Source: Halocatena pleomorpha
GTDB taxonomy: Archaea; Halobacteriota; Halobacteria; Halobacteriales; Haloarculaceae
DNA length: 36,716 nt
Direction of reading: 5' to 3'
Assembly (NCBI RefSeq): GCF_003862495.1
Contig: NZ_RRCH01000032.1
Location: 1 to 36,716 of the forward strand
Part shown: piece by piece, positions 12,484 through 32,033 of the stretch
Position numbering within the stretch: position 1 is the first letter of the stretch
Layout: every line of letters begins with the position of its first letter
Translations under genes and position numbers: made by a program
Notes under the pieces: model-generated
Database searches by the model: none
What the model was told of the DNA's origin: nothing
What the model saw: the letters and a program-made list of their open reading frames with translations, nothing else

Positions 12484-13662
12484 TTAGAATGTCAGCTTTT
12501 GTAGCCGGTTGACAGACTGGATCACTTGGTTGGCCGCGTACTCAATCTGCTCTTGGGTAGTATCCTTACCGAGCCCGAACCGGATGGCTGAATGCCAGAT
12601 GTCCTCTTCATCTGAGATTGCTTGGAGAACATGAGATGCCTCAACTTTCCCGGTTGTGCAAGCAGAGCCAGCAGAAACCGCAATGTCAGGTTGCAGATTC
12701 TGGACCAACGCTTTGTTCTCTACGCCAGCGAAGGAGATATTGAGATTGTTCGGAATTCGCTTTTCTGGATGCCCATTCAGGACAACACCCTCGAGTTTAG
12801 TATTGATCCGCTCCCACATCGCTGTGGTGAGTTCGGCAACGTGCTGACTACGCTCTTGCATTTGCTCGTCAGCCAGCTGGACGGCCTTTCCAAACCCGAC
12901 GATCGATGGAACGTTAAGCGTTCCAGAGCGCCACCCTCGTTCATGACCTCCTCCATGAATTAATGGCTGGAGTTTGACCTTCGGGTTTCGTCTACGGACG
13001 TAGAGTGCTCCAACGCCTTTCGGGCCATAGATTTTGTGAGCGGATAGCGACATCAGATCGATTCCCGTGGACTGAACGTCGATCGGAACGTACCCCATTG
13101 CCTGAACTGCGTCAGTATGGAAGAAGACCTGATTGTTCTTGGCAATCTCTCCAATCTCTCTTATCGGTGCGATAGTCCCGATCTCATTGTTGGCGGCCAT
13201 TATCGAGATCAGAACGGTATCTTCTCGGATCGCTTCTTTGATGGTTTGTGGGTCAACACAGCCGTGCTCGTCAACGGGGAGGTAGGTGACGTCGAATCCA
13301 TCTCCTTCGAGGGATTCACAAACCTCAAGGATCGCTTCATGTTCGGTGACGCTGGTGATGATATGACTACCTTTGTCGTGCTTCTCGGCGTATTCAGCCA
13401 TGCCACGGACAGCGAGGTTGTCGGATTCTGTGGCCCCACTGGTGAAGATAATTTCCTCTTTCCGACAGTTGATGACGCCCGCGATACGTTCTCGGGCTTT
13501 CTCGACTCCCTTCTTGGCGTTAGAGCCAAAGATGTGGTCATCACTGGCCGGATTCCCAAACTGTTCTGTGAAGTATGGCTTCATCTCTTCGACAACCGCT
13601 TCGTCAACTGGGGTCGTAGCGTGATGATCGAGATATATCGGAGTTTCAGGATTAGGACTCAT
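12484..13662 (-). CDS. dndA: cysteine desulfurase DndA
   Basis: A 392-residue PLP enzyme of the IscS/NifS class that takes sulfur from cysteine and passes it on, here for DNA phosphorothioation. Seen: N-terminal IYLDHHATTPVD; FTSGATESDN; the PLP-contacting aspartate D184 in FHTDAVQAMG; the PLP lysine K210 in SLSAHKIYGPKGVGALYVR; the persulfide cysteine C335 in SAGSACTTGK. It is the last gene of a dndC-dndD-dndE-dndA run, overlapping dndE by 11 bases, which supports the DndA name over a housekeeping IscS. A decayed second desulfurase lies at 18263-18627. Confidence 0.93.
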   Translation of the reverse strand: MSPNPETPIYLDHHATTPVDEAVVEEMKPYFTEQFGNPASDDHIFGSNAKKGVEKARERIAGVINCRKEEIIFTSGATESDNLAVRGMAEYAEKHDKGSHIITSVTEHEAILEVCESLEGDGFDVTYLPVDEHGCVDPQTIKEAIREDTVLISIMAANNEIGTIAPIREIGEIAKNNQVFFHTDAVQAMGYVPIDVQSTGIDLMSLSAHKIYGPKGVGALYVRRRNPKVKLQPLIHGGGHERGWRSGTLNVPSIVGFGKAVQLADEQMQERSQHVAELTTAMWERINTKLEGVVLNGHPEKRIPNNLNISFAGVENKALVQNLQPDIAVSAGSACTTGKVEASHVLQAISDEEDIWHSAIRFGLGKDTTQEQIEYAANQVIQSVNRLQKLTF

Positions 13663-14062
13663 TGTTAGCCTGATCGCTTTGGTCTGGCTTGAGGTGTTCG
13701 GGCATCAGAGTGTAATAGTCGTTGATGTCCTTGACGTTTCCAAAGATGCGAATGACGCCCCGGTTCAGGTGGGCCACTAATTCGTCGTACAGATCTTCGT
13801 CAGGATCCTTGCCCTCCTGAATGAGCCGTTCTTTAACGAGTGCGAGATAAAGCGCTTCGTGCTCTCCAAGCAGGGTATATCGGTTGATTGTAAGTCCTTC
13901 TGTATCGTACTCGCTGTGGCTTGGAGGTCGAGGCTCGTTCAGCGAGTAACAGAGACCGATCCGACAGGTGAAATTGTGAGTCATGCCTGTCCGGCCTTTC
14001 AGCATTTGCAACCGGTGCGTGGCGTCGCTCCCCAGTGTAATACGATTGAATTCGTGGCTCAT
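13652..14062 (-). CDS. dndE: DNA phosphorothioation protein DndE
   Basis: A 136-residue protein matching the DndE family in size and sequence, including ITLGSDATHRLQMLKGRTGM near the N-terminus and FTCRIGLCYSLNEPRPPS. DndE is a small helical protein that binds nicked DNA and is needed for inserting sulfur into the DNA backbone with DndC and DndD. It overlaps dndD by four bases and dndA by 11 bases, so the three genes are translationally coupled. The last ~15 residues are acidic, as usual for haloarchaeal proteins. Confidence 0.93.
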   Translation of the reverse strand: MSHEFNRITLGSDATHRLQMLKGRTGMTHNFTCRIGLCYSLNEPRPPSHSEYDTEGLTINRYTLLGEHEALYLALVKERLIQEGKDPDEDLYDELVAHLNRGVIRIFGNVKDINDYYTLMPEHLKPDQSDQANNES

Positions 14063-16083
14063 GATGTGATCTCTTCGGGAGAGGTTTGGTCGGTATCATC
14101 GTCCCAGAAATAACCCTCTGTCGGGACAGTGACGCCTTCGGTTTCGTCGTATTCGAGGTGGTAGGCCTTCGCCACGTCACGGCTCAAAACTTCGTACTGT
14201 TGGTCGTCAATCTCGGTGTCGGTAGAGAAGATTAAGACCTGGTGTGAGGCTTCCGGGAAGAACCGTTTAATCAGGTTATTCCGGTGTCTCTGGTCAAGTC
14301 GTCCGAGCGGCGTGTCGATGATGAAGGGAAGCGGCCGCCCGGAGATCTCAGCAAGCGCCCAGAGCAGAGATGTTGCGAAAATCTGGCGTTCACCTGCCGA
14401 CAGTTCGGTATGCGGTTTCTGACTGCCATGTCTAGTGATAAGGGAGATATCCAGTGTGTCTTCATCGATCTGGATTTCCTTATAGAAGTCGCTCTTATTG
14501 GAGAGTGTAAGGTAGCGGTCGCTCAGTACCTCCTCCAGTTTCCCAAGCTTCTCCTTCGCGAGTTCGTCTCGGTAGTCCTCAATGGCTTTTCGAACGTCGG
14601 AGGCAAGGTTGGCGCGTTCAGAGACGTCCTCAAGCCGGGACTTTTCATCAAGCTTGCTTTGAATCCGGCTATTTACCGTTTCGAGCTTGTTCTGGAGGGT
14701 GCTAATTTCGCTCTCCAGACCTTCAATCTCGTTCTTGAGCGACCCCATCTCCTCTGTTAGCTCGTTCAATTCGTCGATCATCGGCGAGATAACCGATTGG
14801 TCGGGGGCTTTACTGAGACTAGATTCCACTTCTTGTAATTCCCGGACATCAGCCTCAGTCCTGTGGTTGGCCTCAGCGAACTGCTGAGGAACATCATTCA
14901 TCGCTCGGTCAACAACTGAGTAGATGTCTTGACGTTGCGCCCGGGAGAACTGATGAGCTAACTGTGGGTCGTCGCCATCGTGATCAAATTGGCCTTCGAG
15001 TTTGGAGCGGATACGGGTGGTAAGTTCGTTGACGTCACCTTCGCTGACACCAAGGTCCTCCCAGACATCGTCTTCTTCTAGCACATCATCAAGCTCTTTG
15101 GTGAGCTCTTCCTTTGCAGTCCGCTGATTCTGCTGCTCGGTTTCTTCTTGAAGACGTTCTACAACGTTTTTACAGAGGTCAGGTGCCAGTGTGAACGGGA
15201 AGATCCCAGTGACAATTTCCTCGATCTGTCCCTCATGGGACTCGATACTGGCTTTAAGTTCGGCTCTGCGTTCTTTCAGGTCATCACGACGGTTAGCGTA
15301 GGAGCCGCCTTCGGACGCGATTTTGGCCTCAATCTCGTTGATTTCGTCCTGAATTGTATCGAGCTCTTCTTTTTTCTCGAATTTTTCATCTCCTAATCGC
15401 TCGATTTCTTCTTCTAACGCTTCTTTCTCCTCGCGGTAGTCTTCGAGTTCGTCATTGATGCCTTCGACTCCAGAGCTATCGAGCTTCTGTGAGACGTAGA
15501 TGGAAAGGTCAGTATCTAACCGGTCAACAAGGTCAAGACCAAGAAGAGAGTACATCGAGTCAGTGAAGCTGTCATCAGACTCAACAGCACTGGCGAGCTC
15601 CTGAATTTTCTCACCATCAAAAAAGAACAACTGGGAGACGCCCGGCGGAACCAACTGCTGAAGGAAGTCCTGCCACTGATCTTTGTCAAGTTCAGTTGGA
15701 ATCTTCCCGTTCCGACGCATTTCCAAGTTTTCAACAATGCTCTTACCTCTGTCACGCCAGGTGCGCTCCACGGAATAATAATCCTTCTCACCTAGGTGGG
15801 CGTATTCGAACTCAATCCGGACTGAGGCAGTTTCTGCCTTGCCGTCGGGGTATTCGTGGAGACGGCTTCGAACCGTTTGATGGTACTCTCTCATCGCCAC
15901 ACGGCGACCAAGAGCACTGCGGCCATGGAGACAAAATCGGATGGCTTCGAATAGCGTGGTTTTCCCCGCTCCATTTTGCCCACCAAACAGGATAATAGGT
16001 GAGTTATCTGTGGTGGTGAGATCCAGCTCATTCTGTCCGCGATATGGACCGAAATCCTCGATAACAAGTTTATTAAATTTCAT
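14059..16083 (-). CDS. dndD: DNA phosphorothioation ATPase DndD
   Basis: About 674 residues from the ATG at 16083 (MKFNKLVIEDFGPYRG); a start seven codons upstream would overlap dndC by 11 bases and is less likely. It is an SMC/Rad50-like ATPase. Walker A is LFGGQNGAGKTTLFEAI, the signature motif is ELSAGERQIFATSLL and Walker B is LPFIIDTPLGRLDQRHRN. Between them are two long coiled-coil arms (roughly 195-280 and 400-510), rich in Glu and Lys. DndD works with DndC and DndE in sulfur insertion and is thought to supply energy or open the DNA. It lies between dndC (10-base gap) and dndE (four-base overlap). Confidence 0.95.
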   Translation of the reverse strand: MKFNKLVIEDFGPYRGQNELDLTTTDNSPIILFGGQNGAGKTTLFEAIRFCLHGRSALGRRVAMREYHQTVRSRLHEYPDGKAETASVRIEFEYAHLGEKDYYSVERTWRDRGKSIVENLEMRRNGKIPTELDKDQWQDFLQQLVPPGVSQLFFFDGEKIQELASAVESDDSFTDSMYSLLGLDLVDRLDTDLSIYVSQKLDSSGVEGINDELEDYREEKEALEEEIERLGDEKFEKKEELDTIQDEINEIEAKIASEGGSYANRRDDLKERRAELKASIESHEGQIEEIVTGIFPFTLAPDLCKNVVERLQEETEQQNQRTAKEELTKELDDVLEEDDVWEDLGVSEGDVNELTTRIRSKLEGQFDHDGDDPQLAHQFSRAQRQDIYSVVDRAMNDVPQQFAEANHRTEADVRELQEVESSLSKAPDQSVISPMIDELNELTEEMGSLKNEIEGLESEISTLQNKLETVNSRIQSKLDEKSRLEDVSERANLASDVRKAIEDYRDELAKEKLGKLEEVLSDRYLTLSNKSDFYKEIQIDEDTLDISLITRHGSQKPHTELSAGERQIFATSLLWALAEISGRPLPFIIDTPLGRLDQRHRNNLIKRFFPEASHQVLIFSTDTEIDDQQYEVLSRDVAKAYHLEYDETEGVTVPTEGYFWDDDTDQTSPEEITS

Positions 16084-16093
16084 ATGTGAGTAG

Positions 16094-17584
16094 TCATTTT
16101 TCAATGCCTGGGTATTCCCAGACCTCGACGCGATCTTCTCCTTCGATCTCAGCGATGATTTCTTCCGTTGGCCGCCAGTCCTCTTTCAGTACCTTTTCTA
16201 ATTCGTTATAGATCGAAGCACGTCGTTTCATGCCATAGTGTTGGAATTCAGTGTCGAGTAGACGCTGGACTAGTTCCCTCGGAACATCGTGTTCCTCACA
16301 GATCTCTTTGAGAAGTTCGGCTTCGTCCTCTCCGAAGGTTCCGAGATCGTCGTGAATCCAGTCCATTGTATCTCCGTCCATCACATTTCGGTAAATCTTG
16401 GGAACGGAGTCCTCCCAGTCAGACTGTTCCTCTCTCCAGAGCCGGCGGATTTCACGGAGTTCTTCTTTACGAATTAATACCATATCTTCTTCGTCTTCTG
16501 GCAGTTTCTCATTCACTTTTTTCTGGGTCCGTAGTAGCCTCTCTAACAGGTCTTTGCGAAATTCGAACTTATAGGCACGAGGAATGATGCCGTCACCACC
16601 GTTAGTTTTCTCTCTAACTTGTCCGTGTCGTCGGCCTTTCACCTCTCGGTACTGCGGTTTTTTCTCGGGGTCCTGCGTCATCTTGAGGAAATCCCGGAAC
16701 TCAAGGAGAGATTCCATCCAGTCTTCACCTTCGTCGATCATATTCTGCATCGCTTTATCTTCCGAGACGACGGTACATGTCCAGCAACCGAACCGACTGT
16801 TGCCACAGGACGGAGTTTTGGTATCGATCACCATGGGGCACTCGTCATCAGCTTCTTGGTAGAGGGCAGCAAGATCTCGGTTATTCTTACCCCAGGGACA
16901 GTCGACCTGCAACAGGTAGGACCAGACATCGTCAACAATCCAGTCTTCGATCGGAGTATAGACGAAGGCATTAGCGAATTTAGAATGGCGGGAGAGTACA
17001 CTGCCATCGATACCATGTAAGTCCATCACCTGTTTTCTGGTTGCGGATTCGGCTTTCCGGGCTCCAAGAATGACGACGACTTCACCGTGTTCTGAGACTT
17101 TTTCCTTGATAAAGTTGTCCGCTGGGTCGATCTTCATTCGTTCCGTACACCAACGGAAATTCTGGTTAGGGGCCGGGTATCCACGTCCAATTAGGTTCAC
17201 CCAGAACGTATCCTCGATTTGTGGTGTGACCTTGTGAGCTTCGAATGGCAGATCATTCTTGTCCGCAAATTCATTTACATTTTCAAGAGTACTGACGATA
17301 TGGTTGACGATTTTTGGGGTTTCTACTAAGGTATCGCTAGATATGACGTAAACTGGCTTGTTCTGCTGTTCCTCTGGAAGATCTGAGATTGCGTACCAGA
17401 TAAGTTGGAGAGCGGTTGTCGAGTCTTTGCCGCCACTGTATCCAATTACCCAGGGACGACTGTCCGCAAGATAGACCTCCCTGATTTCGTCGTGGATATC
17501 GGTTAGATCACGCCGATCAAAGACAGAATCACCTTTCTCCTGTCCTGTGTTAGCCACATTTTGGACTTCCTCAAAAGTACTCAT
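16094..17584 (-). CDS. dndC: DNA phosphorothioation sulfurtransferase DndC
   Basis: About 496 residues from the ATG at 17584 (MSTFEEVQNVAN); an upstream start at 17608 is possible. It is a PP-loop ATP pyrophosphatase of the PAPS-reductase type, with the loop in VIGYSGGKDSTTALQL. A cysteine cluster follows: WCTERMK, then CGNSRFGCWTC, which would bind an iron-sulfur cluster. DndC activates the DNA phosphate and accepts sulfur from DndA. First gene of dndCDEA and probably transcribed from its own promoter, since the preceding pbe operon ends about 1 kb upstream. No dndB repressor gene is adjacent. Confidence 0.95.
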   Translation of the reverse strand: MSTFEEVQNVANTGQEKGDSVFDRRDLTDIHDEIREVYLADSRPWVIGYSGGKDSTTALQLIWYAISDLPEEQQNKPVYVISSDTLVETPKIVNHIVSTLENVNEFADKNDLPFEAHKVTPQIEDTFWVNLIGRGYPAPNQNFRWCTERMKIDPADNFIKEKVSEHGEVVVILGARKAESATRKQVMDLHGIDGSVLSRHSKFANAFVYTPIEDWIVDDVWSYLLQVDCPWGKNNRDLAALYQEADDECPMVIDTKTPSCGNSRFGCWTCTVVSEDKAMQNMIDEGEDWMESLLEFRDFLKMTQDPEKKPQYREVKGRRHGQVREKTNGGDGIIPRAYKFEFRKDLLERLLRTQKKVNEKLPEDEEDMVLIRKEELREIRRLWREEQSDWEDSVPKIYRNVMDGDTMDWIHDDLGTFGEDEAELLKEICEEHDVPRELVQRLLDTEFQHYGMKRRASIYNELEKVLKEDWRPTEEIIAEIEGEDRVEVWEYPGIEK

Positions 17585-17613
17585 TGTTGTCTTATTGTGT
17601 TTCCCCACGGCAA

Positions 17614-18262: not shown

Positions 18263-18627
18263 ACGAACGTGGGAGGTGGCTGGTACACTGAATACGCCGG
18301 CGGTCGTAGGGTTCGGGAAGGCGATGTAGCTGACTGAACAGGAGCGTGAGTCTCGGGCCGAGCACGTGGACACGCTGACCTCGTACATGTGGGAACGTAT
18401 CGACGATGAGTTCGATAACATTGTGTTGAACGGCGACCCAGACCACCGGCTTCTAAACAATCCCAACGTCAGCTTCCTTGGCGTCGAGAACAGGACGCTG
18501 GTGAAGAACCTGCCCCAATGTTGCGGTATCAGCCGGATCAGCGTGTACGACCGGGAAAGTCAAAGCTGTCCTCTGTGCCATCGGTGGTGACGACGACCGA
18601 TAGCACTTGGCCATCCGGTTCGGATAG
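18263..18627 (+). pseudogene. decayed cysteine desulfurase (DndA/IscS-like) 3' fragment
   Basis: Lies on the plus strand, opposite to dndA and to the pbe genes. One frame encodes TSYMWERIDDEFDNIVLNGD and NNPNVSFLGVENRTLVKNLP, closely matching dndA residues ~279-323. A neighbouring frame then gives NVAVSAGSACTTGKVKA, which preserves the persulfide-cysteine loop. A last piece resembles the IWHSAIRFG ending. Upstream (18263-18340) the GGW-SGTLN-VP-IVGFGKA region is visible but full of stops. At least two frameshifts and several stops make it nonfunctional. It is a second, diverged desulfurase, not an exact duplicate of dndA. Confidence 0.85.
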
Positions 18628-18629
18628 TC

Positions 18630-19073
18630 CTATCCCTGGAACTCCCGTTCGATCTCCTCAAGGACACTGATCCGTTCCTCCTCGGACTCAATATCACGGT
18701 TGCGCCGGAGGAACTCGATCATGTTGTCAAGCGGGTCACCGGGCTGCTCTACCACTTGTGAGCGGATGATGTCGATACCGGCTGACGCGTATTTCTGCAG
18801 GATGTCAACCTGCATGTCCTCGTCTACCAGCGTCTCATAGTCTTCGGTGTGTGCGTACGCAATCGACATCGCTACGACCAGGTTCTGCGGATTGTTCCGT
18901 AGGATGCGCCACGGTATTTCATCGCCCTTCCCGGGATTGTCATCGAACTGGCTACGGTTATATCCGACCGAGGCAGCCAACAGGAACAGGTCTTTGTACG
19001 TGTCGAAGATCGAGTTATCGCCGTCAACAAGGATCTCATATGTCTCAGTTTTCTCGTAGCGAATCCGGGGCAT
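18630..19073 (-). CDS. pbeD: 147-aa phosphorothioation-associated protein, probable PbeD
   Basis: Acidic, mostly helical protein beginning MPRIRYEKTETYEILVDG and ending in a charged helix ISVLEEIEREFQG. No enzymatic motif is visible. It is the last of four tightly packed genes, starting eight bases after the SMC-like gene. The four-gene order beside dndCDEA matches the DndCDEA-PbeABCD antiviral system described in haloarchaea, where the Pbe proteins block virus DNA replication without cutting it. The letter D is assigned from gene order only. The protein could act as a structural or DNA-end-binding partner of the SMC-like ATPase. Confidence 0.65.
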   Translation of the reverse strand: MPRIRYEKTETYEILVDGDNSIFDTYKDLFLLAASVGYNRSQFDDNPGKGDEIPWRILRNNPQNLVVAMSIAYAHTEDYETLVDEDMQVDILQKYASAGIDIIRSQVVEQPGDPLDNMIEFLRRNRDIESEEERISVLEEIEREFQG

Positions 19074-19081
19074 AGCTGTAA

Positions 19082-21100
19082 TTACACCTCCTCACGGATC
19101 TCGGTATACTCGTACTCAATGTCCACTTCCTTCTCGGGGTCGTGATACTCCAGATAATACTGCTTGCCTGCGTACCGCTCTAAGTGGTGTTTTACTTCGG
19201 CTTCCCACTGCGGTTCCGTCACTAAGACCACTACTTGGTCCGCGAGGTGCGGGATTTTCTTACTGACGCCTCGCTGGTACTCTGTTCCCAGGTATCCAAA
19301 CGGAGCGTCCATGACCAATGGGTAGACACCGCCCTGAAAGTACACGTTGTTCTCACTAGACCGGTACTGCTCCCGAGTAAGGTACGTTAGAGCGCCGATG
19401 AACGCAAGACTAGCAACCTGTCGCTCTCCGGTGGACGTCGGCACCGAGGAGATCAGATCGTTTCGGCCGCCGACCTCTTTGTACACGTCCAGTGAGTAGT
19501 CCTCCCCAATCTCGGTCCAGTAGTTCTTCGAGATAATGTCGTCAAAAATCTCCTTCACCGTGTCGTCAACTTGCTCCCGGACCTGATCCTGATACGACTC
19601 AAACTTCACCTCCAACTCCTCACGCGCTCGCTGTGCAGCTATGAACCGGCGCCGGGCCTTCTTCGACTTCTCCTCTTCCTCCCGTGCGTCTTCGATGTCG
19701 GACTCGATATCCGATATCTGTTCTTTGATTCGCTTAATCTCGTTTTCAACACGGTCCATCTCCTGATCAAGGTTCGTGATACGCTCCTCCATCTGCCCCC
19801 GGCGCCGTTCCAACTCCTGAATATCTTCCTTCGCCTTACCAGAGATTTGGTCGCTGATATCGTCCAACCGTTCGGAAATTTCGTTTATCTCGTCCAGCCG
19901 AGCGCGTCGACGGCTGAGGTCGTCTTGAATCTCGTCAAAGAGCCCTGACCGAGCCTTCGTAATCCCTCGAAGTCGACTGGTGATGTTCGTGGCCGCTTGA
20001 TCGAGGTCGTTGGTGCCCGCTTTCGTCTTCCAGTCCTTCACCTGCTCATATGGGTCCGTCTCCTCGATTAGATCCCGGCCACAGATACACTGCCCCATAT
20101 CCAGCCGGTCCTCGACAAACCGAGCCTTGATTTCGCTGGGTATCTCGCCTTTATCGCGTTTCTCTTCCAAGGCCTCTGCTGTCTTCTGAACGGCCGGCAT
20201 CGAGAACACGAGATAACCGTATTCAGAGCAAGTTTCTCGGACATCGTTGTTTATCTCCTCAATTTCTTCACGTAGTTCTTTTTCCCGTTCCTCCAGCTTA
20301 TCGCGTTCCTCCTGCAACTCACGCGTATCCTCAAGTTCACGCAGGCGTTTCTCTACAGACGCTAACTCGCCTTCCGTTTCCTCGATGCTCTGCTCTAAGT
20401 CCAGCAGTCGTTCTTTTTTGGAGGACAATTTCTCCTGCTTCTCATCGTGGGCGACAATGTATTCCGATAGCTCATCACTCCCGTATTCTTCCATCTCCTC
20501 CTCGAAGGCGTTCTTCTGTACCCACTTCAGGTGCCGGATGGAGCGTTCAAGGATTTCCAGCCCCATCAGGTTCCGGATCGCATCGCGAACCTTGTCCTGG
20601 TTATCCTGCCGGGAGAGTTGGTCGATTTCCTCTCCGTGGAAGAAGAACAGGTGGCTCAAACGTTTAGGGATGAACCGCTCTAGTGACGTGTTCGGGTTCT
20701 CAGGCGTCACCGTCTTCCCGTCCACGTCCATGTACTGGACGTGGGATCCCTCGTCCACTAGCTCTCCGTCCAAGTCATCTGAGGCCTGCTTCTCGTACTC
20801 GGCCCACCGCCCAGTCCAGTAATGCCGGTCGTTATGATCGAACTCTAACTTAACCTCTACTCTGATGGGGTCACCCACATCGGCTTCGGCCATCGCCCGC
20901 TCATTCGCGACGTGATCGGGCTGCGGCAGGTCGACATCGTTGTAGAATAGCCAGAGAAACGTGTTCCGTAACGCAGATTTACCAGCACCGTTCGCACCGT
21001 GGATGACCGTGACGTTCTCATCCTCGTCTTGAGAGAACTTGACCGACTGATCACCGTAGTATTGACGAAAATTTGATAATCTAAGAGTATCGAACTCCAT
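19082..21100 (-). CDS. pbeC: SMC/Rad50-like ATPase, probable PbeC
   Basis: A 672-residue protein built like DndD. Walker A is VIHGANGAGKSALRNTFLWL near residues 32-51. A hydrophobic patch YLVFSMPAVQ and a cysteine hook-like GQCICGRDLIEE sit midway, between two long coiled coils. The signature is SSVPTSTGERQVASLAF and Walker B is YPLVMDAPFGYLGTEYQRG. It is distinct from the modification ATPase DndD at 14059-16083 and sits in the separate effector operon. Likely role: ATP-driven DNA sensing or blocking in the Pbe effector complex. Starts two bases after the 51-aa gene stop. Letter C is assigned by gene order. Confidence 0.8.
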   Translation of the reverse strand: MEFDTLRLSNFRQYYGDQSVKFSQDEDENVTVIHGANGAGKSALRNTFLWLFYNDVDLPQPDHVANERAMAEADVGDPIRVEVKLEFDHNDRHYWTGRWAEYEKQASDDLDGELVDEGSHVQYMDVDGKTVTPENPNTSLERFIPKRLSHLFFFHGEEIDQLSRQDNQDKVRDAIRNLMGLEILERSIRHLKWVQKNAFEEEMEEYGSDELSEYIVAHDEKQEKLSSKKERLLDLEQSIEETEGELASVEKRLRELEDTRELQEERDKLEEREKELREEIEEINNDVRETCSEYGYLVFSMPAVQKTAEALEEKRDKGEIPSEIKARFVEDRLDMGQCICGRDLIEETDPYEQVKDWKTKAGTNDLDQAATNITSRLRGITKARSGLFDEIQDDLSRRRARLDEINEISERLDDISDQISGKAKEDIQELERRRGQMEERITNLDQEMDRVENEIKRIKEQISDIESDIEDAREEEEKSKKARRRFIAAQRAREELEVKFESYQDQVREQVDDTVKEIFDDIISKNYWTEIGEDYSLDVYKEVGGRNDLISSVPTSTGERQVASLAFIGALTYLTREQYRSSENNVYFQGGVYPLVMDAPFGYLGTEYQRGVSKKIPHLADQVVVLVTEPQWEAEVKHHLERYAGKQYYLEYHDPEKEVDIEYEYTEIREEV

Positions 21101-21102
21101 TT

Positions 21103-21258
21103 CTATTTGACCTCTTCCCGAATGATGTCTTCGATATCCTTACGGATTCCGCGCGGGTTCTTTAAATGCAGCTTATCCTGCTCTGCCTGCAGTACCCGCT
21201 CGATTACTGCAGCGATCTTCTCGTCCTCAACCTCGGTATCGGGGTTGTTCCGGCTCAT
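21103..21258 (-). CDS. pbeB: 51-aa helical protein in the effector operon, probable PbeB
   Basis: A short gene beginning MSRNNPDTEVEDEKIAAVIE and ending DIEDIIREEVK at a TAG. It fills the 165 bp between the helicase and the SMC-like ATPase, with gaps of seven and two bases, so all four genes are co-transcribed. The protein is charged and predicted helical with a central AEQDKLHLKNPRGIRK segment, and it has no membrane or metal motifs. Its packing strongly suggests a real gene despite its size. It would complete the four-member Pbe set; the letter B is from order and not from a sequence comparison. Confidence 0.65.
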   Translation of the reverse strand: MSRNNPDTEVEDEKIAAVIERVLQAEQDKLHLKNPRGIRKDIEDIIREEVK

Positions 21259-21265
21259 AATTGTA

Positions 21266-23419
21266 TTAGATACCAAGAAGGTTGAAGTCTTCTTTCAGTT
21301 TTCTTATTGACCCTTGGCTGGTAGGAAGCCTTTGGAGCTCCGCGTCCGGGTGATTGAGGGCGTCTTCTGCGAACACGGAGGCACGTTTAAGTTCCTTTGA
21401 GATAAGTTTTCTCTCTATGCTGAATTGACTCTTGCCCATCGTGTTTGGATTCATCGATTTTGGAGGTGATACGATAAAATCATGGATAACTGCCTGTTCT
21501 TTGTCGGGATACTGTCGGAGGATGCGGCCTCGCCGCTGCACAAACTGGATTGGGTTCGTCGAACTGGCGAGGAGATACGCTGTCTCGGTCGCCGGGACAT
21601 CCACACCTTCGTCGAGGCAGCGAATGGCGACAAGCGCCTGTAGATCTCTGTTTTCAAACTTGTTCAAGAGCCGTTCCTGCTCACTCTGTGTTTCCTGTGC
21701 AGTGAACGGGTGGACTTTGAGTCCCAGATCTCGTCCCAATGTTTGGGCAGTGGCGTCGACATGGCGCTGTGTTTCCTCATGACTCTCGTCGGATTCAACG
21801 CTTCCATCCCCACAGTACACGAGCGTGTGCTTGATATCCTCCTGCTCCGACACCAGCTCAGTTAACCGTTTGATCTTGTTCTCCGCAGTGCCGATAAGCC
21901 GGGCTCGCTTGATGAGCAGAGATTTCAGGCGGTCATCCTCGGTCAGTTCGATGTCGTCGTCAACGACATGCGATAGCTTCCCGATACGCTGCGACAGGTC
22001 AAAGTACCGGTGTTCCTCGTCCTCAGTGAGTTCGATGATGTGCGGGATGTAGTAGTATTCGCACAGGAACCCGTTGTCGATCGCCTTTCTGATGCCGTAC
22101 TCGAACACGACGCCGTTTCCGAAGTAGTTAAACAATCGCTCCGTCCCTGTATCGTCATAGTACCGTTCAGGTGTTGCGGACAATCCCATCCGGTTCTGGA
22201 TGTTGGACGGTAGCTGCTCTCGGTAGTGGCTAGCGCCCATGTGATGCACTTCGTCCAGAATCAGCAGCGACTCCTCACCCTCCAACCGGCTGAGCACGTT
22301 CTGGAAATGGTTGGAAGAGAACGTCTTGTGCGTCGTGATAACGGAGAGGTGGTCATTTGCACCCCAATTGAAATCCGTCACAGCCCGGGCAAAATCGTCC
22401 TCCCACCGTGACCGGGATTTGTACGCGAGAATAGGATCCATGTTAAAGTCCGTCATCGCGCTCTTCCACTGCTCGACAAGATGCTGGTACGGAGCGGCTA
22501 CGATCAAAGCTAGCCGTTCACCCTGTCGTTCGTAGAGTTCACGGGAGGCAAGGAGCGAGGTAAGCGTCTTTCCCGTCCCGGTCGCCATCTTCAAGATCCC
22601 TCGTCCTCCTGTTTTCATCCAATTCTGGACCGCCTCTTCCTGGTATGGGCGGTGTTCGATCCATTCCGGCTCCGAGAGGCCGACGGGATCATTCCTCGAC
22701 ATGTCTGGTTCAGGGTAGGGACGGTTGTCCGGTTTACGCAACTGTACGATATCCTCCTGGATAGTCTCTGGGAGATTGTACACCGTCATGTCCGGTGTCT
22801 GGTCGTTCCATAGGAGATCAAACCGGTTCTCATGCTGCCGGATACGGTCTGCATCCCGGCTGGATTCCCACTCGCAGAAGATATCGTACGATTCGTAGTT
22901 GTAAAACCCTTGTTTGCTGTCATTCTTCGATCCGTGAAACGCGAGTTTATCGCCGTAGACTCCGGTGATGATTCCCCACTTGTCGTGGAAATCGCCGGCG
23001 GGATTGCCGTCCGGCATCGCGAACCGAATCTCCAGTAGGCCATCAGCAATCAACCATGCAAGGGTGTTCAGCGTATCGTCCTCCAAGCCGTCCTCGATCT
23101 CGTTAACATTCCGTCGAAGTGACTCGTACAGGATGTCGTTCTGTTTAGCTTCCTCGCCTTCCCGGAACGCCTCCCAGTCATCTTCCTCGAGGTTCGGGCT
23201 GGTAATCCACTGCGCCTTTCCGTTGTTTCGAGCGAGGCTGGCCATCCCCTGCGCGGCGAACTGTAGCCAGCCGCTGGTAAAGAATCCGACGCCGCGTTTG
23301 TACTCGGCGGCGCACTGGAGGACCGGGTTGTAGAACTCTTTGATGAAGTCCGTGGTCGAAGTTTCGATAACGGCGGACAGATCGAGATTCTGAAGCTGCT
23401 TTGAGTCTGTCTCACTCAT
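21266..23419 (-). CDS. pbeA: PLD-domain SF2 helicase, probable PbeA
   Basis: A 717-residue protein. Residues ~20-205 resemble a phospholipase-D-type nuclease domain with HDKWGIITGVYGDKLAFHGS (H145, K147, then GS at 163-164). After this comes a superfamily 2 helicase: Q-motif-like HRPYQEEAVQNW, Walker A KMATGTGKTLTSLL at 278-290, DEVHH in LLILDEVHHMGA, GLSATPERY, and motif VI PIQFVQRRGRILRQ. Similar PLD-helicase fusions occur in restriction and defence loci. First gene of the four-gene effector operon beside dndCDEA, hence the probable PbeA call; the domains are certain, the name rests on context. It may unwind or scan unmodified invading DNA. Confidence 0.82.
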   Translation of the reverse strand: MSETDSKQLQNLDLSAVIETSTTDFIKEFYNPVLQCAAEYKRGVGFFTSGWLQFAAQGMASLARNNGKAQWITSPNLEEDDWEAFREGEEAKQNDILYESLRRNVNEIEDGLEDDTLNTLAWLIADGLLEIRFAMPDGNPAGDFHDKWGIITGVYGDKLAFHGSKNDSKQGFYNYESYDIFCEWESSRDADRIRQHENRFDLLWNDQTPDMTVYNLPETIQEDIVQLRKPDNRPYPEPDMSRNDPVGLSEPEWIEHRPYQEEAVQNWMKTGGRGILKMATGTGKTLTSLLASRELYERQGERLALIVAAPYQHLVEQWKSAMTDFNMDPILAYKSRSRWEDDFARAVTDFNWGANDHLSVITTHKTFSSNHFQNVLSRLEGEESLLILDEVHHMGASHYREQLPSNIQNRMGLSATPERYYDDTGTERLFNYFGNGVVFEYGIRKAIDNGFLCEYYYIPHIIELTEDEEHRYFDLSQRIGKLSHVVDDDIELTEDDRLKSLLIKRARLIGTAENKIKRLTELVSEQEDIKHTLVYCGDGSVESDESHEETQRHVDATAQTLGRDLGLKVHPFTAQETQSEQERLLNKFENRDLQALVAIRCLDEGVDVPATETAYLLASSTNPIQFVQRRGRILRQYPDKEQAVIHDFIVSPPKSMNPNTMGKSQFSIERKLISKELKRASVFAEDALNHPDAELQRLPTSQGSIRKLKEDFNLLGI

Positions 23420-24043
23420 ATGGGCGCATCGTTCCGTATACTCATTTGTGGTGGACGTTACCAGAAGTAGATACTATGTCTGCATAAGTCCACCGGGGTA
23501 AGAACACTGCGGGTTAGCCTATGAATCCCGCGGAAAATGATAGACCATGACTTCTCGGGAACGGAATACTTAACATCGTCTAGAATGTACCTGACATTAG
23601 GCTGTCTGGGTCTCGCCATCGTCCCAACATGGCTCTCCTGGGCGGCCGGCACGCCCGCGTAGAGAACCGCTGCCAGTGGGTCGGTTCGATAGCTCTGGGT
23701 ACGGTTTCCGAACGGGCGATCAGCGACGTATGCAGATTCCGAGCCCACCGTCACAAGGGCGGTTCCGGGAGCTGCTGGAGGACTCCCAGCGTGTCCTCCA
23801 GGTGATGTGGCTCGCGTGGCAGCTTTTCCGCGAGTTGTCCTTGTGACACACGACGAAAAGAGGCATCGCTTGCCAACTCTTCTCATTTTTCCTTAGGACT
23901 AGTCTAAGGTATCTCATTCGAGGATATGCTGACTGTCCCCTGACTTTTCTCGCTTATCTGCAGACGATATACCCTACTCGGAGAGAAAACGCGCCACCAA
24001 ATTCTTTCCGCAGGACACTATGGAGACGCTGCTCCCTCGGCTT
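23420..24043. other. gap upstream of the pbe operon with possible transposase debris
   Basis: No intact gene. A plus-strand frame ending at a TGA near 23848 reads like the C-terminal end of a transposase (RRMQIPSPPSQGRFRELLED followed by a Trp-rich helix VMWLAWQLFRELSL), but it has no convincing upstream part. A 142-codon minus-strand frame here is Arg/Pro/Thr-rich and looks like the shadow of that sequence. The region must also carry the pbeA promoter near 23420-23460. Confidence 0.35.
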
Positions 24044-24445
24044 TCACTCATTTAGAGCGTAGAATCCTTTCTGAATTTTCTTCAGGTGTCCCTCATCAAC
24101 CAGCTGGCCGAGTGCTTCGCTGACATTCGAGTCGTTTCGTCCCGTCGCTTTCACCAGTTCACCGGTGCTGAATTTATTCGCATCCTCCGCCCGGAAGTGA
24201 TTCAGGATTTCCACCCTTACCTGACTAGCCACCATATCCAGAGTGTCGTACTGGTACACTAACTGCGCGAGATTCCTAAAATCAATATTCACCTCTTTCA
24301 CGACACCGATTTCACCGTCCGTTTCCACGTCGCGGAATACCTTTTCCTGCTTCAGTCGTTGCAACTCCGTTTTTCCAATGGTGGTGGAAGCGCACCGCAA
24401 TTCGGTGTCCTCTGAAAACTCTACTTTTTCCCCTGGCGTTGTCAT
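24044..24445 (-). CDS. winged-helix transcription regulator upstream of the pbe operon
   Basis: A 133-residue protein. The C-terminal half is a winged helix: MVASQVRVEILNHFRAED, FSTGELVKATGRNDSNVSEA and LGQLVDEGHLKKIQKGFYAL. The N-terminal half is beta/acidic, of unknown type. It faces the same way as the pbe and dnd operons and lies about 620 bp upstream of pbeA. No dndB repressor is seen, so this gene is a plausible local regulator of the phosphorothioation system, but that link is only positional. An inverted repeat just upstream (24480-24493) may be its operator. Confidence 0.75.
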   Translation of the reverse strand: MTTPGEKVEFSEDTELRCASTTIGKTELQRLKQEKVFRDVETDGEIGVVKEVNIDFRNLAQLVYQYDTLDMVASQVRVEILNHFRAEDANKFSTGELVKATGRNDSNVSEALGQLVDEGHLKKIQKGFYALNE

Positions 24446-24493: not shown

Positions 24494-25474
24494 TTCCTTG
24501 GCTACGTCCCGAAGTCATCACCCCAGATACAGCAACAGCTACACGCTTGCCTACGGTGTCTTCCTCCAATAACTAGTGGTAATACCCATTTGAGATATCT
24601 TGCGACAGGATTTATCCTCACATAAGAAACGAGGTAACTTTGTAAACTGGGAAAGTGGTTTCAGAGATCAGGGAGGAATCATTGAAAGCTGGCTAGATAG
24701 ATTCTCTTCGAAATTTCCTTCTAACGTCTGGGGGCGGATTATTACACAAGATTAATATGCTCCCACGTATTACGAAAAATCGGGACGATGGCGAGACCAG
24801 CCGCAAGGTGGCCTCGCTAATTCTGCGGAGAAAATAAAGTAGCGGTTGCTGAGTGCAATCGATAAGGGCGGCTGATTGCTTTCCTCCATGAGGTTTGGCT
24901 GTTTCCACCTTTTCAATAGTATTATTCCTGCAGTCCCGTATCCCAGACCTGACAATCCAGCTCGTCAGGTGACATCGTCTAACTTCCTGTATTCAGTCAT
25001 AAGATCTTGGTTATACTCTGAGGCTCGAATCTCTAGCCAGGTCCCGCGCTCATTTTAGGTTCGGCGTGGCACAGAAGAGGCCGCTCGTGAAGAAGGCGGT
25101 GACTATGTACAGTTGCAGCAGCGTCAGCTACGGAACGACCGAGGTGATTGTCTGGGTGATTCTAAGACGTTCAGAATTACTCAGCATCATATCTTCTGAG
25201 AAATACCGTGTTACGAAGAACACCGATGCTCCTCCGATTATCACCCGGCGGCCTGTCCTCGTTGCAGATCCGCAACACCAGCAGGCGCCACGAACAGGGC
25301 GGTCCTGATTCCGCCGCCGACATCCAGCACGAAGTCTCTCACCCGATACTACCTTCTACTTTCGCTCGCCTCTTGCGATACAGCCACGTCAACACTTTTC
25401 AGAAGAACAGGCCGATTAACAAGTTGTGAACCGTAACCAGCAGAGTCCTGACCTCTTGTTGATTGGGACGATAC
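24494..25474. other. noncoding or decayed stretch
   Basis: About 980 bp in which both strands carry only short frames with stops. A minus-strand frame around 24770-24908 (ETAKPHGGKQSAALIDCTQQ) has a semi-natural look but no family was recognised. Probably old mobile-element debris, given the IS630-like relic that follows. Confidence 0.4.
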
Positions 25475-25785
25475 TCACGGCCATAAGCACGTAAAGAGAT
25501 TTGGTGGATTGACGCTGTCGAGCGCGGCGTCACGAAGTTCGCCCAGAGTATTGAACAGGCGGTTGCCGAGTGCTTGATTGAGTTTCTTCCACGCCTCCCC
25601 GAGTCCAGCTCTGGTGAACCCTGTGGCAGGTAACACAGTTCGATCGGGGTGTCCTTGACGAACTCTTGGACTGCGTTCGCCGTGAAATACGACGCGCTGT
25701 CTGAGAGGATGCAGGTTTTCTCGCCGAACTCAATCTGAATCGCGTTCAACAGCCGGATCGTTGAGGTGTTCGAAGCGATCCGCAA
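25475..25785 (-). pseudogene. IS630-type transposase, 3' relic
   Basis: The minus strand encodes ILSDSASYFTANAVQEFVKD then LCYLPQGSPELD, the DDE-domain segment of IS630 transposases (normally D-N-A then S-P-E-L-N-P). The frame then breaks, and a shifted frame continues AWKKLNQALGNRLFNTLGEL and RDAALDSVNPPNLFT to a TGA at 25475. The 5' half is missing and the acidic residue region is altered, so the element is dead. Confidence 0.85.
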
Positions 25786-26743: not shown

Positions 26744-28083
26744 TTAGATCGGTCCATCAGCATCGTCCGATAGCAGCATATCCTTCAACGTGTCATCGAT
26801 CAAGCTACCGATCGGGTCATCATCGTCTTCCTCGTCCTCAGCTTTGGACTCACCACTGTCTTGCTCTTCATCTTCTTCCCCAGTGTCTTCCGTCTGAACA
26901 CTGTAACGTTCTGACGAGTCCAGTCCAGCCGTCTCAAGCGCAGCTACCCACGACCCAAAACGCAAGGATGCAAGTCCCGGAGAGAAATCGATTAATTTCT
27001 CCGCTTCAGTGGTTGTCGGGGCATGCCCGAGCTCGTCGGCTACGGCCCGGAGGCCATCCAGTATATCAGTGTTCGTATGCGATCGACGGCTCCAGTCTGG
27101 TACATCGTTGGGGTCGTACTCCGCGGTTTCAAGTGCAGCAGCCCACGAACTGAATGCATCCCGGTATGTCTCCGCTGAGAACACCCCATACGTAGCTACT
27201 AAGTCCTCGGTCGGCGGTTCACCGAGAAGGTTGGCAAACCGTTGAATCTCACTGATTAAGTCGTCTTCATTGAAGTCCTCTGGAATCTCGAACTCCGGCC
27301 GGTCAACATCTCTCTCCGAAGCATCTATCTCAACTGACTTGTCTGTCTCAGCTTCGCCTTCGGAATTTTCCGGTGTTTCTTTCTCGGGGGCTTCTTCATC
27401 CGGTTCGGGCTTAGGCTCTGGCTCCTTAACGCCATCAGACTTGCCCTCGGTATCTGGCCGCGGTGTTGCTGCTTCCTCACTGTAGAAATCTGCTCGCGTC
27501 ACCTCGTCCGGGAGAATCCCTGTCTCTTGATACGCAGTGTACAAATCGCCAAACTCATCTCGGTACCGCTGATGGACGTACTCGCCGTGGTCGTTGATCT
27601 CCTCGGCACTCGGTAAGTGGCCCAGTTCCTGGGTGAGCGACACCAACGCGATCACTAGGTCTCGCCGCCGCAGATCAATCTGTTTTTCCTCCGGTTCGTC
27701 TTCTGGCCTGGTCACATCCTGATACAAGTCCTGGTGGTTCTGGGTGAATTCCTCTGCCACATCGGTCGCCCGGATATACCCGTCGTCATCCCGGTAATAG
27801 TAATTTTTGAGTTCGGATTCGAAATATTGGCGGATCTCATTGCCATCATTTAATCCCCACCGGTCCTGTAGCCTGACGTTCCTCGTCGGCTGCCGCCGGA
27901 CAAGGTCAACAACTTGTTCCTGCTCCCGTTCAGGAAGTGTGGCGTCCGCACCGTTCGATTCCAGATCATTCTCAAAAATGAAACCCCTATCTTCTTATTT
28001 TCTTCGTTTGATTGATTGGTCGAAGTAACTGGGTCGGCATCGACGTCCGCAGATTTCTCAGTGGTGTCGTTCGGCGGCCCCAT
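26744..28083 (-). pseudogene. acidic protein with homing-endonuclease-associated repeats, frameshifted
   Basis: The 338-codon part after a GTG at 27760 has three repeats of the homing-endonuclease-associated helical type: ELGHLPSAEEINDHGEYVHQ, LLGEPPTEDLVATYGVFSAE with SSWAAALETAEYD, and ELGHAPTTTEAEKLIDFSPG with GSWVAALETAGLD. They are joined and flanked by long acidic linkers. The same frame stays open upstream to about 27978 (LPEREQEQVVDLVRRQPTRN, a winged-helix-like segment) without a start. A second frame carries the beginning (MGPPNDTTEKSADVDADPVT from 28083, or an earlier ATG at 28221). The two join if the T-run at ~27977-27981 had six rather than five T. It lies directly downstream of the nuclease gene. 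Confidence 0.65.
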
Positions 28084-28174
28084 CGATAGTTGCTCAACCG
28101 GATTCAGTGAATTACGAAGAATCTCATCTTGTATGCCTCCTGTGCAGGCACTTCGCTTAAAACTATTACTTCCA

Positions 28175-29404
28175 TCAAATCGATCTATAAATCGAATCGT
28201 TGTTGGTACATTTCTCATCAATGATTTGGTAGAAGCTGGTACCTTCCAACACTCGGTGCAGATCGCGTGAGTTGATGACGATGATCTCCGGGGTTCCGTT
28301 TAGCCCCCCAGTTGCCATACGTTCTGCATGCCGCTCCTCACCTTCACCAGAGATACCGTTCCAGGCGAACATGATTCCGAGGTCAACGTCCGTCATGTTG
28401 CATTTGTCCTTGAAGTGGCCGATCTCCTTGGCCGGGACTGGGTCAATCCAGTGTTTGCATTCGACTATAATGAACCGGGAATAGAAGTTAAACAGGGTGT
28501 GTCGGTCCGTCCCCTTGTTTTCGATCACTAGATCAATTTCACCAAACTTTGTATACAGGTTTTCATCGCGAACAGAGAGGTACGGGAACGAGCTGAATAA
28601 CTGTGTAGCGACGGCTTCCAAGGCGTTGCCTTTCTCCTGTTTCGTTTCAGCTATCTCAGCCTCATACAGGATCTCGCCGAATCTTCGGAGATTGAGCTGA
28701 CAGTGCTCGGTCTCGATACTCGGCGGATTGTAAGCGATATCCGCATCACCCCAGACAGTAAACATCTGCAGCTTCGTCTGCTCCGGATGATACCCAGCAG
28801 GATACGCCACAGCCCGCGGATACCGATCTGGCGCCCGCAATAGCTCATACAGCCGCTCCGAATCCTTCCGCTCAAGCTCCCGAAACCGAAATGCTTCGAG
28901 ATCTTCGCTCGGCCGAACGACGACTATCCCTTTATCAGAGAATAAGATAGAGTAGTGGGCACCGGCCGTTTCACGTCGGATATTAAGATAATAGATGGCA
29001 GAGATGTAATCGGAACCGTGTTCGAAATCTTCCGGCGTAAGGGATGCTGTATCGACCGTAAGGTAGGGTGGGGAGTTGACGCTTCTGGCAGCTAGGATGT
29101 CGAAAAAGAAGGTGATGCCTGGTTCAGGGGCGTAGTTATCGGGCGGCGGGCACAGCATCATTGCCCGTTCAGATTGTAGATCTCTAATCGGGTGCAGGTC
29201 TTCTGCTTCTACGGACACGTTGTTGAACAGATGCTGGTCATCGTATCCGAGAAGTAAAAGAAATTCTTGAAGAACGATTTCTATTCTGTCTCGGGATTGT
29301 TTCCCTGAGTTAGAGTTCCGGGTGGCGCTGTAGAGTGAGGTGAGTAGGTCGTGGAACTCCTGTTTATTTTCGTTTTCCATGTGTTCTTGCTGGACTGTGC
29401 CCAC
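28175..29404 (-). CDS. PD-(D/E)XK restriction-endonuclease-like protein
   Basis: A 409-residue protein. The C-terminal half has the catalytic pattern of Mrr-like nucleases: E263 in GNALEAVATQLF, D291 in FGEIDLVIENKG, then E315 and K317 in FIIVECKHW, with EIGHFKDKC as the helical cap. The N-terminal ~230 residues are a beta-rich region of unknown type, likely for target recognition. Either ATG 29404 or 29380 (MENENKQEF) may be the start. The downstream repeat protein follows in the same direction and may overlap its end, which suggests a two-gene unit. An antiviral or type IV-like restriction role is inferred from fold and neighbourhood. Confidence 0.75.
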   Translation of the reverse strand: MGTVQQEHMENENKQEFHDLLTSLYSATRNSNSGKQSRDRIEIVLQEFLLLLGYDDQHLFNNVSVEAEDLHPIRDLQSERAMMLCPPPDNYAPEPGITFFFDILAARSVNSPPYLTVDTASLTPEDFEHGSDYISAIYYLNIRRETAGAHYSILFSDKGIVVVRPSEDLEAFRFRELERKDSERLYELLRAPDRYPRAVAYPAGYHPEQTKLQMFTVWGDADIAYNPPSIETEHCQLNLRRFGEILYEAEIAETKQEKGNALEAVATQLFSSFPYLSVRDENLYTKFGEIDLVIENKGTDRHTLFNFYSRFIIVECKHWIDPVPAKEIGHFKDKCNMTDVDLGIMFAWNGISGEGEERHAERMATGGLNGTPEIIVINSRDLHRVLEGTSFYQIIDEKCTNNDSIYRSI

Positions 29405-30786: not shown

Positions 30787-31016
30787 AGGTGTAAGTTGTT
30801 TCTCAAGCAAATAAAGTTCGCCAGCTCCCGTGCTGAAAGCTGGTAATTCCACGGTCAGCAGCGTCTCGGCATTCGTTTGTTCATTGTCTCCTCGTTTGAT
30901 GGTGGTCTGTTCTTGAGTGAGAAGGAATTTTTCGCCCCGTTTCTGTATAGCTACGAAATAGCAGCTGATAGCCTTCCCTGAATTCTTCGAGTGTACTCTT
31001 ATCCTTCATGATTTGT

Positions 31017-31098
31017 GTTCACTACTGGTGTTCACTACTGGTGTTCACTACTGGTGTTCACTACTGGTGTTCACCGATGAATGTACTTACTGGTGTTA
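31017..31098 (+). repeat. 13-bp iterons upstream of parA
   Basis: Four exact head-to-tail copies of GTTCACTACTGGT occupy 31017-31068. A partial copy (GTTCACC) follows at 31069 and a degenerate one (TTACTGGTGTTAA) near 31087-31099. They sit about 50-130 bp before the parA start. Such iterons next to a ParA gene commonly form the plasmid centromere and the operator for the partition operon. Confidence 0.8.
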
Positions 31099-31151
31099 AT
31101 GATTGAATGTAATAGGTAACATTGATGGCTGAGTGGATAGTAAACACACAC

Positions 31152-32033
31152 ATGCTGGCGTACACCACGTATTCGGAGGCCGGTGGCGTTGGAAAGACGA
31201 CGACAGCTGCAAACTTGGCCGCCGCTCACGCTCGTGCTGGATTGGATGTGTTAGTCGTTCCATTGGATCCACAAGACGGTGACCTCTCGCGGCTGTTTGG
31301 GGTTGATATGAATCGAACAGAGTCCGTCGATAATCTCGTTCGCCACATGATTCAGCGCCCAAAGGGAGAGTTCGACGATCTCATTGAGACCGTCGAAGGA
31401 ATCGATATCGTTCCTGAACACAATATGCTGAGTGACCTCGCAGATTACCTCCGACGGGAAAAAGAACAAGCAGAGGCGATGGGAGAGGCGTTCGGGATGC
31501 ACTCACAATTGCTTCGCACGTTACGCGAAGCAGGTGTTCAGGACCGCTATGATGTGTTGATCTGTGATCCACCGGCAACCGAAAGTCCTCACCTTTACAA
31601 CGCAATCAATGCGACCCGGTCTTTGGTACTGCCTGTTGAGCCGAGCGAGAAAGGGAACGCAGCAGTGCAAGGGTTAGAATCACTAGTCGCTGGGATACAA
31701 GAGAGTCTCAACATTGATATCGGGGTGCTGGCCGCGCTGCCAGTAGGGTACAAGGATACGAATGATCAACGCGCCATCCTCAATGCTATTCCGTATTCAA
31801 CGCCTGAGATCGTTGGAGAGCGTTCATCGCTGTTCGAAGGCTGCTGGAAAGAGCAGTGTTCGGCGTTCGAATATGTTCGTACCCACCGGGATCGTCAGCG
31901 CGACTACGAACTTGAGACGCTCGCGAAATTCGATCGCTTGGCGCGACGACTTGAGCAAGAGGTCGATATTGAAGCGCCAACCCCGCCCGCTCCCGGCACT
32001 GTTGACCACGACGCAGTCGAAGCAAGACTATGA
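31152..32033 (+). CDS. ParA-family partition ATPase
   Basis: About 293 residues from ATG 31152 (MLAYTTYSEAGGVGKTTTAA); ATG 31125 and TTG 31122 in the same frame are alternatives. It carries a deviant Walker A AGGVGKTT in which the usual signature lysine (KGG) is replaced by alanine. The A' motif is VVPLDPQDGDLSRLFG and the Walker B-like strand is VLICDPPATESPHLYN. ParA ATPases move plasmids by binding DNA nonspecifically and responding to a centromere-binding partner. Iterons upstream and a small acidic partner gene overlapping the end by four bases complete the module. Confidence 0.88.
   Translation: MLAYTTYSEAGGVGKTTTAANLAAAHARAGLDVLVVPLDPQDGDLSRLFGVDMNRTESVDNLVRHMIQRPKGEFDDLIETVEGIDIVPEHNMLSDLADYLRREKEQAEAMGEAFGMHSQLLRTLREAGVQDRYDVLICDPPATESPHLYNAINATRSLVLPVEPSEKGNAAVQGLESLVAGIQESLNIDIGVLAALPVGYKDTNDQRAILNAIPYSTPEIVGERSSLFEGCWKEQCSAFEYVRTHRDRQRDYELETLAKFDRLARRLEQEVDIEAPTPPAPGTVDHDAVEARL

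Follow-up and report, generated by a model that had tools for sequence, protein, structure and literature searches.

Within the stretch of Halocatena pleomorpha DNA analyzed here (the window; 36,716 nucleotides, contig NZ_RRCH01000032.1), a protein combining a DUF5797 domain with three PF18780 repeats is encoded near a Dnd-Pbe cluster, and the association of this kind of protein with PbeA-type helicases is well supported. We read the repeat protein as an optional accessory of Dnd-Pbe and of related haloarchaeal helicase defences, and the nuclease encoded next to it as an independent Mrr-like enzyme, a joint reading to which we assign a probability of about 0.55.

As described in PMC6459918, DndCDEA-PbeABCD blocks virus replication in a phosphorothioate-dependent manner and with no cleavage visible, the cloned cluster gives about 10^4-fold protection, and how PbeABCD picks non-phosphorothioated DNA and blocks replication without visible cleavage is open. 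In a 2024 reappraisal (PMC10853773), PbeA is argued to consist of an HKD nuclease joined to an SF2 helicase, and cleavage to be likely. A recurrent accessory gene whose product probably binds DNA is a candidate for the target-selection step of PbeABCD. The literature searches found no functional study of DUF5797 or PF18780 and no paper naming DUF5797; such an accessory gene, together with the fusions of both domain types described below, provides a first functional lead for both.

Two neighbouring genes and the adjoining Dnd-Pbe cluster

Two minus-strand ORFs in the same direction, 28175-29404 (409 aa) and 26744-27760 (338 aa), were found as an earlier, sequence-only reading had described them. 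The nuclease probably starts at the ATG at 29380 (401 aa), likelier than at the GTG that yields 409 aa. The second ORF exists, but its true frame is longer, as the GTG at 27760 is an internal codon of a frame that stays open upstream to 27994 and thereby gains a DUF5797 domain. The nearest plausible ATG (28082), about 90 bp from the nuclease stop, is shifted by one base relative to this frame in the assembly, which points to a one-base frameshift or sequencing error, or else to an unusual start codon. The intergenic stretch contains a TATA-like TTTTAA. Both genes and their neighbours in the window are as follows.

28175..29404, minus: PD-(D/E)XK (Mrr_cat-type) nuclease (conserved E / ExD / ExK; Mrr_cat in 10/11 family members)
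26744..27994, minus: DUF5797 and HNH_repeat (PF18780 x3) protein, 416-aa open frame (ORF and domain matches)
25399..25785, minus: transposase remnant (truncated DDE_3, E=2e-7), separating the repeat gene from the Pbe genes
24044..24445, minus: small winged-helix protein with a weak AbiEi-antitoxin-like N-terminal HTH
23458..23886, minus: 142-aa protein with no family match, directly upstream of PbeA
21266..23419, minus: PbeA, SF2 helicase (PADLOC PbeA, E=2.3e-236), putative partner of the repeat protein
21103..21276, minus: 57-aa ORF, candidate PbeB only by its position between PbeA and PbeC and its size
19082..21100, minus: PbeC, ABC ATPase (PADLOC, E=3.5e-218)
18630..19073, minus: 147-aa protein in the pbeD position (phmmer matches; no PADLOC or Pfam model)
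12484..17608, minus: DndC, DndD, DndE and DndA, phosphorothioate modification (PADLOC, operon position, homologues)

PbeA, PbeC, DndC and DndD were each identified in this one cluster by PADLOC (E <=2e-204 each), bearing out the claim that phosphorothioation genes adjoin the two ORFs. DndE and DndA were assigned from their place in the operon and from homologues present at other Dnd loci, and the 147-aa protein is homologous to genes that directly follow PbeC in other Pbe clusters. The window shares DndC, DndD, PbeA and PbeC with the DndCDEA-PbeABCD system (Xiong et al. 2019, PMC6459918); DndE, DndA and candidates for PbeB and PbeD lie in the corresponding positions. It differs from that system in the repeat protein: the available portions of PMC6459918 and PMC10853773 mention no DUF5797/PF18780 protein, whereas the window and about a quarter of the sampled loci have one.

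The repeat gene is found upstream of the 142-aa gene that precedes pbeA, and the roughly 2.9 kb between them contain the transposase remnant and the small HTH gene. The repeat gene might be a pseudogene that transposon activity left behind, a decayed passenger with no function in this genome, as its plausible start is one base out of frame, the transposase remnant adjoins it, and no close relative was found in two same-genus genomes. We consider this unlikely, given that the other 416 codons form an open frame and that the domains are well conserved, but a reading frame with no normal start in the assembly does mean that the window copy may be dead.

A degenerate dndA-like fragment at 18366-18590 (plus strand) faces the gene in the PbeD position, as though a convergent dnd operon once present there had been replaced.

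Domains of the repeat protein

The domain matches, all on the minus strand, are distributed as follows.

27716..27934, minus: DUF5797 (PF19110) domain (E=2.5e-22), overlooked in the gene model of the sequence-only reading
27545..27667, minus: PF18780 repeat 1, of the type common to Pbe-linked relatives
27116..27268, minus: PF18780 repeat 2
26918..27076, minus: PF18780 repeat 3

The three helical repeats noticed earlier in this protein proved to be PF18780 repeats (E=1.2e-35), and the window gene is the only one in this genome to carry them. The impression of a winged-helix-like N-terminal part is explained by the DUF5797 domain; a low-confidence model predicts it as helices plus a small beta hairpin, winged-helix-like, and the PF18780 repeats as helical bundles. 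Foldseek returned no significant match for the repeat protein, with weak HTH-type matches only.

Like other homing-endonuclease-associated repeat (PF18780) proteins, the window protein has repeats that score, all three, well above the curated cut-off; unlike them, it carries no HNH or LAGLIDADG endonuclease domain and is partnered with SF2 helicases. The domain search returned PF18780 and DUF5797 only, and not the endonuclease domain expected of a homing endonuclease.

Used as a query, the repeat protein found matches in 288 of the 292 haloarchaeal genomes searched, and most of these were to DUF5797 in stand-alone frames of about 160-200 codons. Being near-universal in such small frames, DUF5797 may have a wider role.

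PF18780 genes are enriched beside PbeA

To place the repeat family, windows of about 20 kb around PbeA were taken from 43 of the 46 matches scoring above 430 bits, picked by PbeA score alone, and PF18780-type genes were called with a profile made from 12 repeats. Such genes occurred in 10 of the 43 PbeA windows and in none of 52 control windows (0/13 HsdR, 0/13 Cas1, 0/6 weak HSDR_N and 0/20 random). From their density across genomes (about 39 in 25, that of the window included), about 0.35 windows would be expected to contain one. Fisher p is 1.9e-4 versus all controls and 2.3e-3 versus the defence controls, but the exact values should not carry much weight: two of the ten positive windows (L101 and L102) belong to one genus, three of the ten loci supplied some of the seed repeats of the profile, and the control sets are small. 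Enrichment near defence genes, which the sequence-only reading had proposed as a check, holds for the repeat family, but at PbeA, and its probable partner is a PbeA-type helicase and not the nuclease. That PF18780 genes merely track defence islands was rejected for the islands sampled (0/32 HsdR-type and Cas1 windows). Many PF18780 genes are located away from Pbe.

The six closest relatives of window repeat 1 (E<1e-15) come from four Pbe loci (L051, L052, L053 and L140) and from L049 and L050, which encode a PbeA-like helicase. The repeat gene lies directly beside the Pbe genes and near DndCDEA in L051, L052 and L053; in L051 it is convergent with the gene in the PbeD position, with a 4-bp overlap, and in L053 (4985-10531) it encodes a protein of 1,848 aa that combines DUF5797 with 12 or more PF18780 repeats, and it ends 45 bp upstream of PbeA, in the same orientation. 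In L140 it is found downstream of PbeA, the PbeC-position gene and the PbeD-position gene, 59 bp after the last of these, and on the same strand as that gene and as DndCDEA. The repeat gene of L049 and L050 adjoins an SF2 helicase similar to PbeA and a second helicase, whose homologue in another locus, L130, matches DpdJ.

Fusions to PbeA-like helicases

A plasmid protein of Halapricum desulfuricans (WP_229126527.1; 1,601 aa) joins a PbeA-like helicase (2.7e-48 against PADLOC PbeA) to four PF18780 repeats, and near-full-length homologues encoded by an intact gene are present in two more plasmid records (Halorientalis and Halomontanus). When the helicase part of this fusion was used as the query of a class-wide search, the same fusion of helicase and PF18780 repeats was found at five further loci (L228-L231 and L233), and the same helicase family with a C-terminal DUF5797 at two others (L238 and L239; 1.5e-15 and 2e-14). 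In addition, two genomes have single frames of 3,293 and 3,117 codons (G010:C2 and G162:C2, respectively) with matches to both the PbeA-like helicase and DUF5797; each of these fusions is called from two matches within one open frame, lying a multiple of three bases apart. Each of the two domain types of the window protein therefore occurs elsewhere as part of a PbeA-like helicase protein.

These arrangements would also fit a broader, tentative reading that we hold less probable than the main one, in which DUF5797 and PF18780 form an interchangeable DNA-recognition toolkit joined in cis or in trans to haloarchaeal PbeA-type SF2 helicases. If so, repeat arrays would be specificity or loading modules of many helicase antiviral systems, both phosphorothioate-dependent and not.

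The nuclease, probably a separate Mrr-like gene

The features assigned within the nuclease gene are the following.

28616-28618, minus: catalytic codon E263
28538-28540, minus: catalytic codon E289
28532-28534, minus: catalytic codon D291
28460-28462, minus: catalytic codon E315
28454-28456, minus: catalytic codon K317
28838..29305, minus: degenerate N-terminal REase-like fold, approximate extent (AlphaFold2 model, homologue matches, alignment)

The full catalytic set attributed to this protein (E263, E289xD291, E315xK317) is intact and conserved among homologues: E263, E289/D291 and E315/K317 are invariant in an alignment of five haloarchaeal homologues, and the catalytic residues are at least 90% conserved in an alignment of 11 sequences including bacteria. 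The Mrr_cat model (PF04471) matches 10 of these 11 aligned family members, and relatives tested singly exceed its cut-off; the window nuclease itself scores 18.7 bits, below the cut-off of 21, and is for this reason classed as Mrr-like and not as Mrr. Foldseek gave weak restriction-endonuclease-fold matches (Rpb5 jaw, EcoT38I, DrdV and an HsdR fragment; E 1e-3 to 1e-2) that are consistent with such a fold for the modelled protein but no proof of it, and sequence searches of the PDB gave nothing useful.

The N-terminal region, left unassigned by the sequence-only reading, is now best read as a degenerate REase-like fold. Residues of about 26-181 of the AlphaFold2 model (mean pLDDT 73, pTM 0.48) follow the helix-strand-strand-strand-helix-strand order of the restriction-endonuclease fold, and the N-terminus of the Variovorax homologue (L015) weakly matches HSDR_N (4.1e-4) and HSDR_N_2 (3e-3). 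In the alignment, the E-x-K motif at the relevant strand is kept in three bacterial members, and the window nuclease has TVDTA where its bacterial relatives show IELK, FEIK or IEVK, the acidic/Lys motif being lost. From the alignment and the model we infer, with moderate confidence, a second, degenerate REase domain. The nuclease shares with Mrr and type IV-like restriction enzymes (PF04471) a C-terminal domain with conserved E, ExD and ExK, and differs from them in its score below the Pfam cut-off and in an N-terminus that looks like this fold and not like a recognised modified-base reader.

The family is thinly spread. A single-sequence query found it in 5 of 292 haloarchaeal genomes, and the alignment query recovered these five with strong matches and some other genomes with weak matches to the catalytic domain; plasmid records gave distant catalytic-domain matches only, and scans of a viral collection with the nuclease alignment and with the repeat protein gave no relatives. 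One homologue (L013, an archaeal MAG) is 48% identical, and a change of frame splits its gene in two. No PF18780 gene and no Dnd or Pbe gene was found around the homologues L009-L013 in the 13-18 kb fetched per locus, and among the 43 Pbe loci only the window has a nuclease homologue. The pairing of nuclease and repeat protein proposed earlier is not supported, as the two families occur independently and the conserved adjacency looked for is absent at both sets of loci. With tyrosine recombinase-like genes adjoining the nuclease in L011 and L012, and no Dnd or Pbe genes near L009-L013, the gene looks independently mobile, and it is best treated as a separate restriction-type boundary gene, beside the repeat gene by chance or as an extra.

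The C-terminal PD-(D/E)XK domain looks active, and the degenerate N-terminus may be a sensor or a dimer platform. The enzyme probably cuts foreign or modified DNA alone, or else might serve as a boundary back-up effector of Dnd-Pbe, fired when the main system is inhibited. This second role, proposed in PMC10853773 for the stand-alone restriction enzymes that it describes at Dnd boundaries, would suit a single-gene restriction enzyme at the cluster edge. The examined homologues of the window nuclease lie away from Dnd loci, two of them near recombinase-like genes, and we regard the back-up role as rather improbable.

Proposed role of the repeat protein

Returning to the repeat protein as an accessory, we propose that it is an optional subunit of DndCDEA-PbeABCD, split off in the window by the transposase remnant. 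Its repeats and winged helix most likely bind DNA, and it would position a PbeA-type SF2 helicase on, or bring it to, invader DNA devoid of phosphorothioate marks. We infer this DNA binding, the contact with PbeA and the target-loading role from the domains and their genomic company; target loading would fit both the no-cleavage and the cleavage views of Pbe. As only about a quarter of Pbe loci carry a PF18780 gene, and the cloned cluster protects well, the repeat gene is not generally essential.

The same domains might instead point to a promoter switch, given that DUF5797 is winged-helix-like in its low-confidence model, near-universal in haloarchaea and mostly found in small frames, and that the repeats are predicted as helical bundles. 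The occurrence of both domain types at the C-terminus of SF2 helicases, together with arrays of at least 12 repeats in one 1,848-aa protein, suggests an effector-side role, and we regard a switch as unlikely. Most improbable by a wide margin is a two-gene module in which the repeat protein guides the nuclease to DNA, since the shared strand, the close spacing and the nearby defence cluster are outweighed by the separate distributions of the two families, the company of helicases kept by the repeats and the TATA-like element between the genes.

Further observations

A set consisting of a DpdJ-like helicase and a PbeA-like SF2 helicase recurs in L049 (1-10698), L050 (9836-19801) and L130 (1231-8644). 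In L049 and L050 the set also includes two PF18780 proteins, one of which has a length of about 910 aa and, in L049, a helix-hairpin-helix domain as well; in L130 the two helicase genes are divergent to PbeA. This set is possibly an uncharacterised defence system.

In the window, tandem 13-bp repeats (TTCACTACTGGTG) occupy positions 31005-31111, directly before a ParA-like gene (31122-32033). Their resemblance to iterons or a partition site suggests a plasmid-type replicon.
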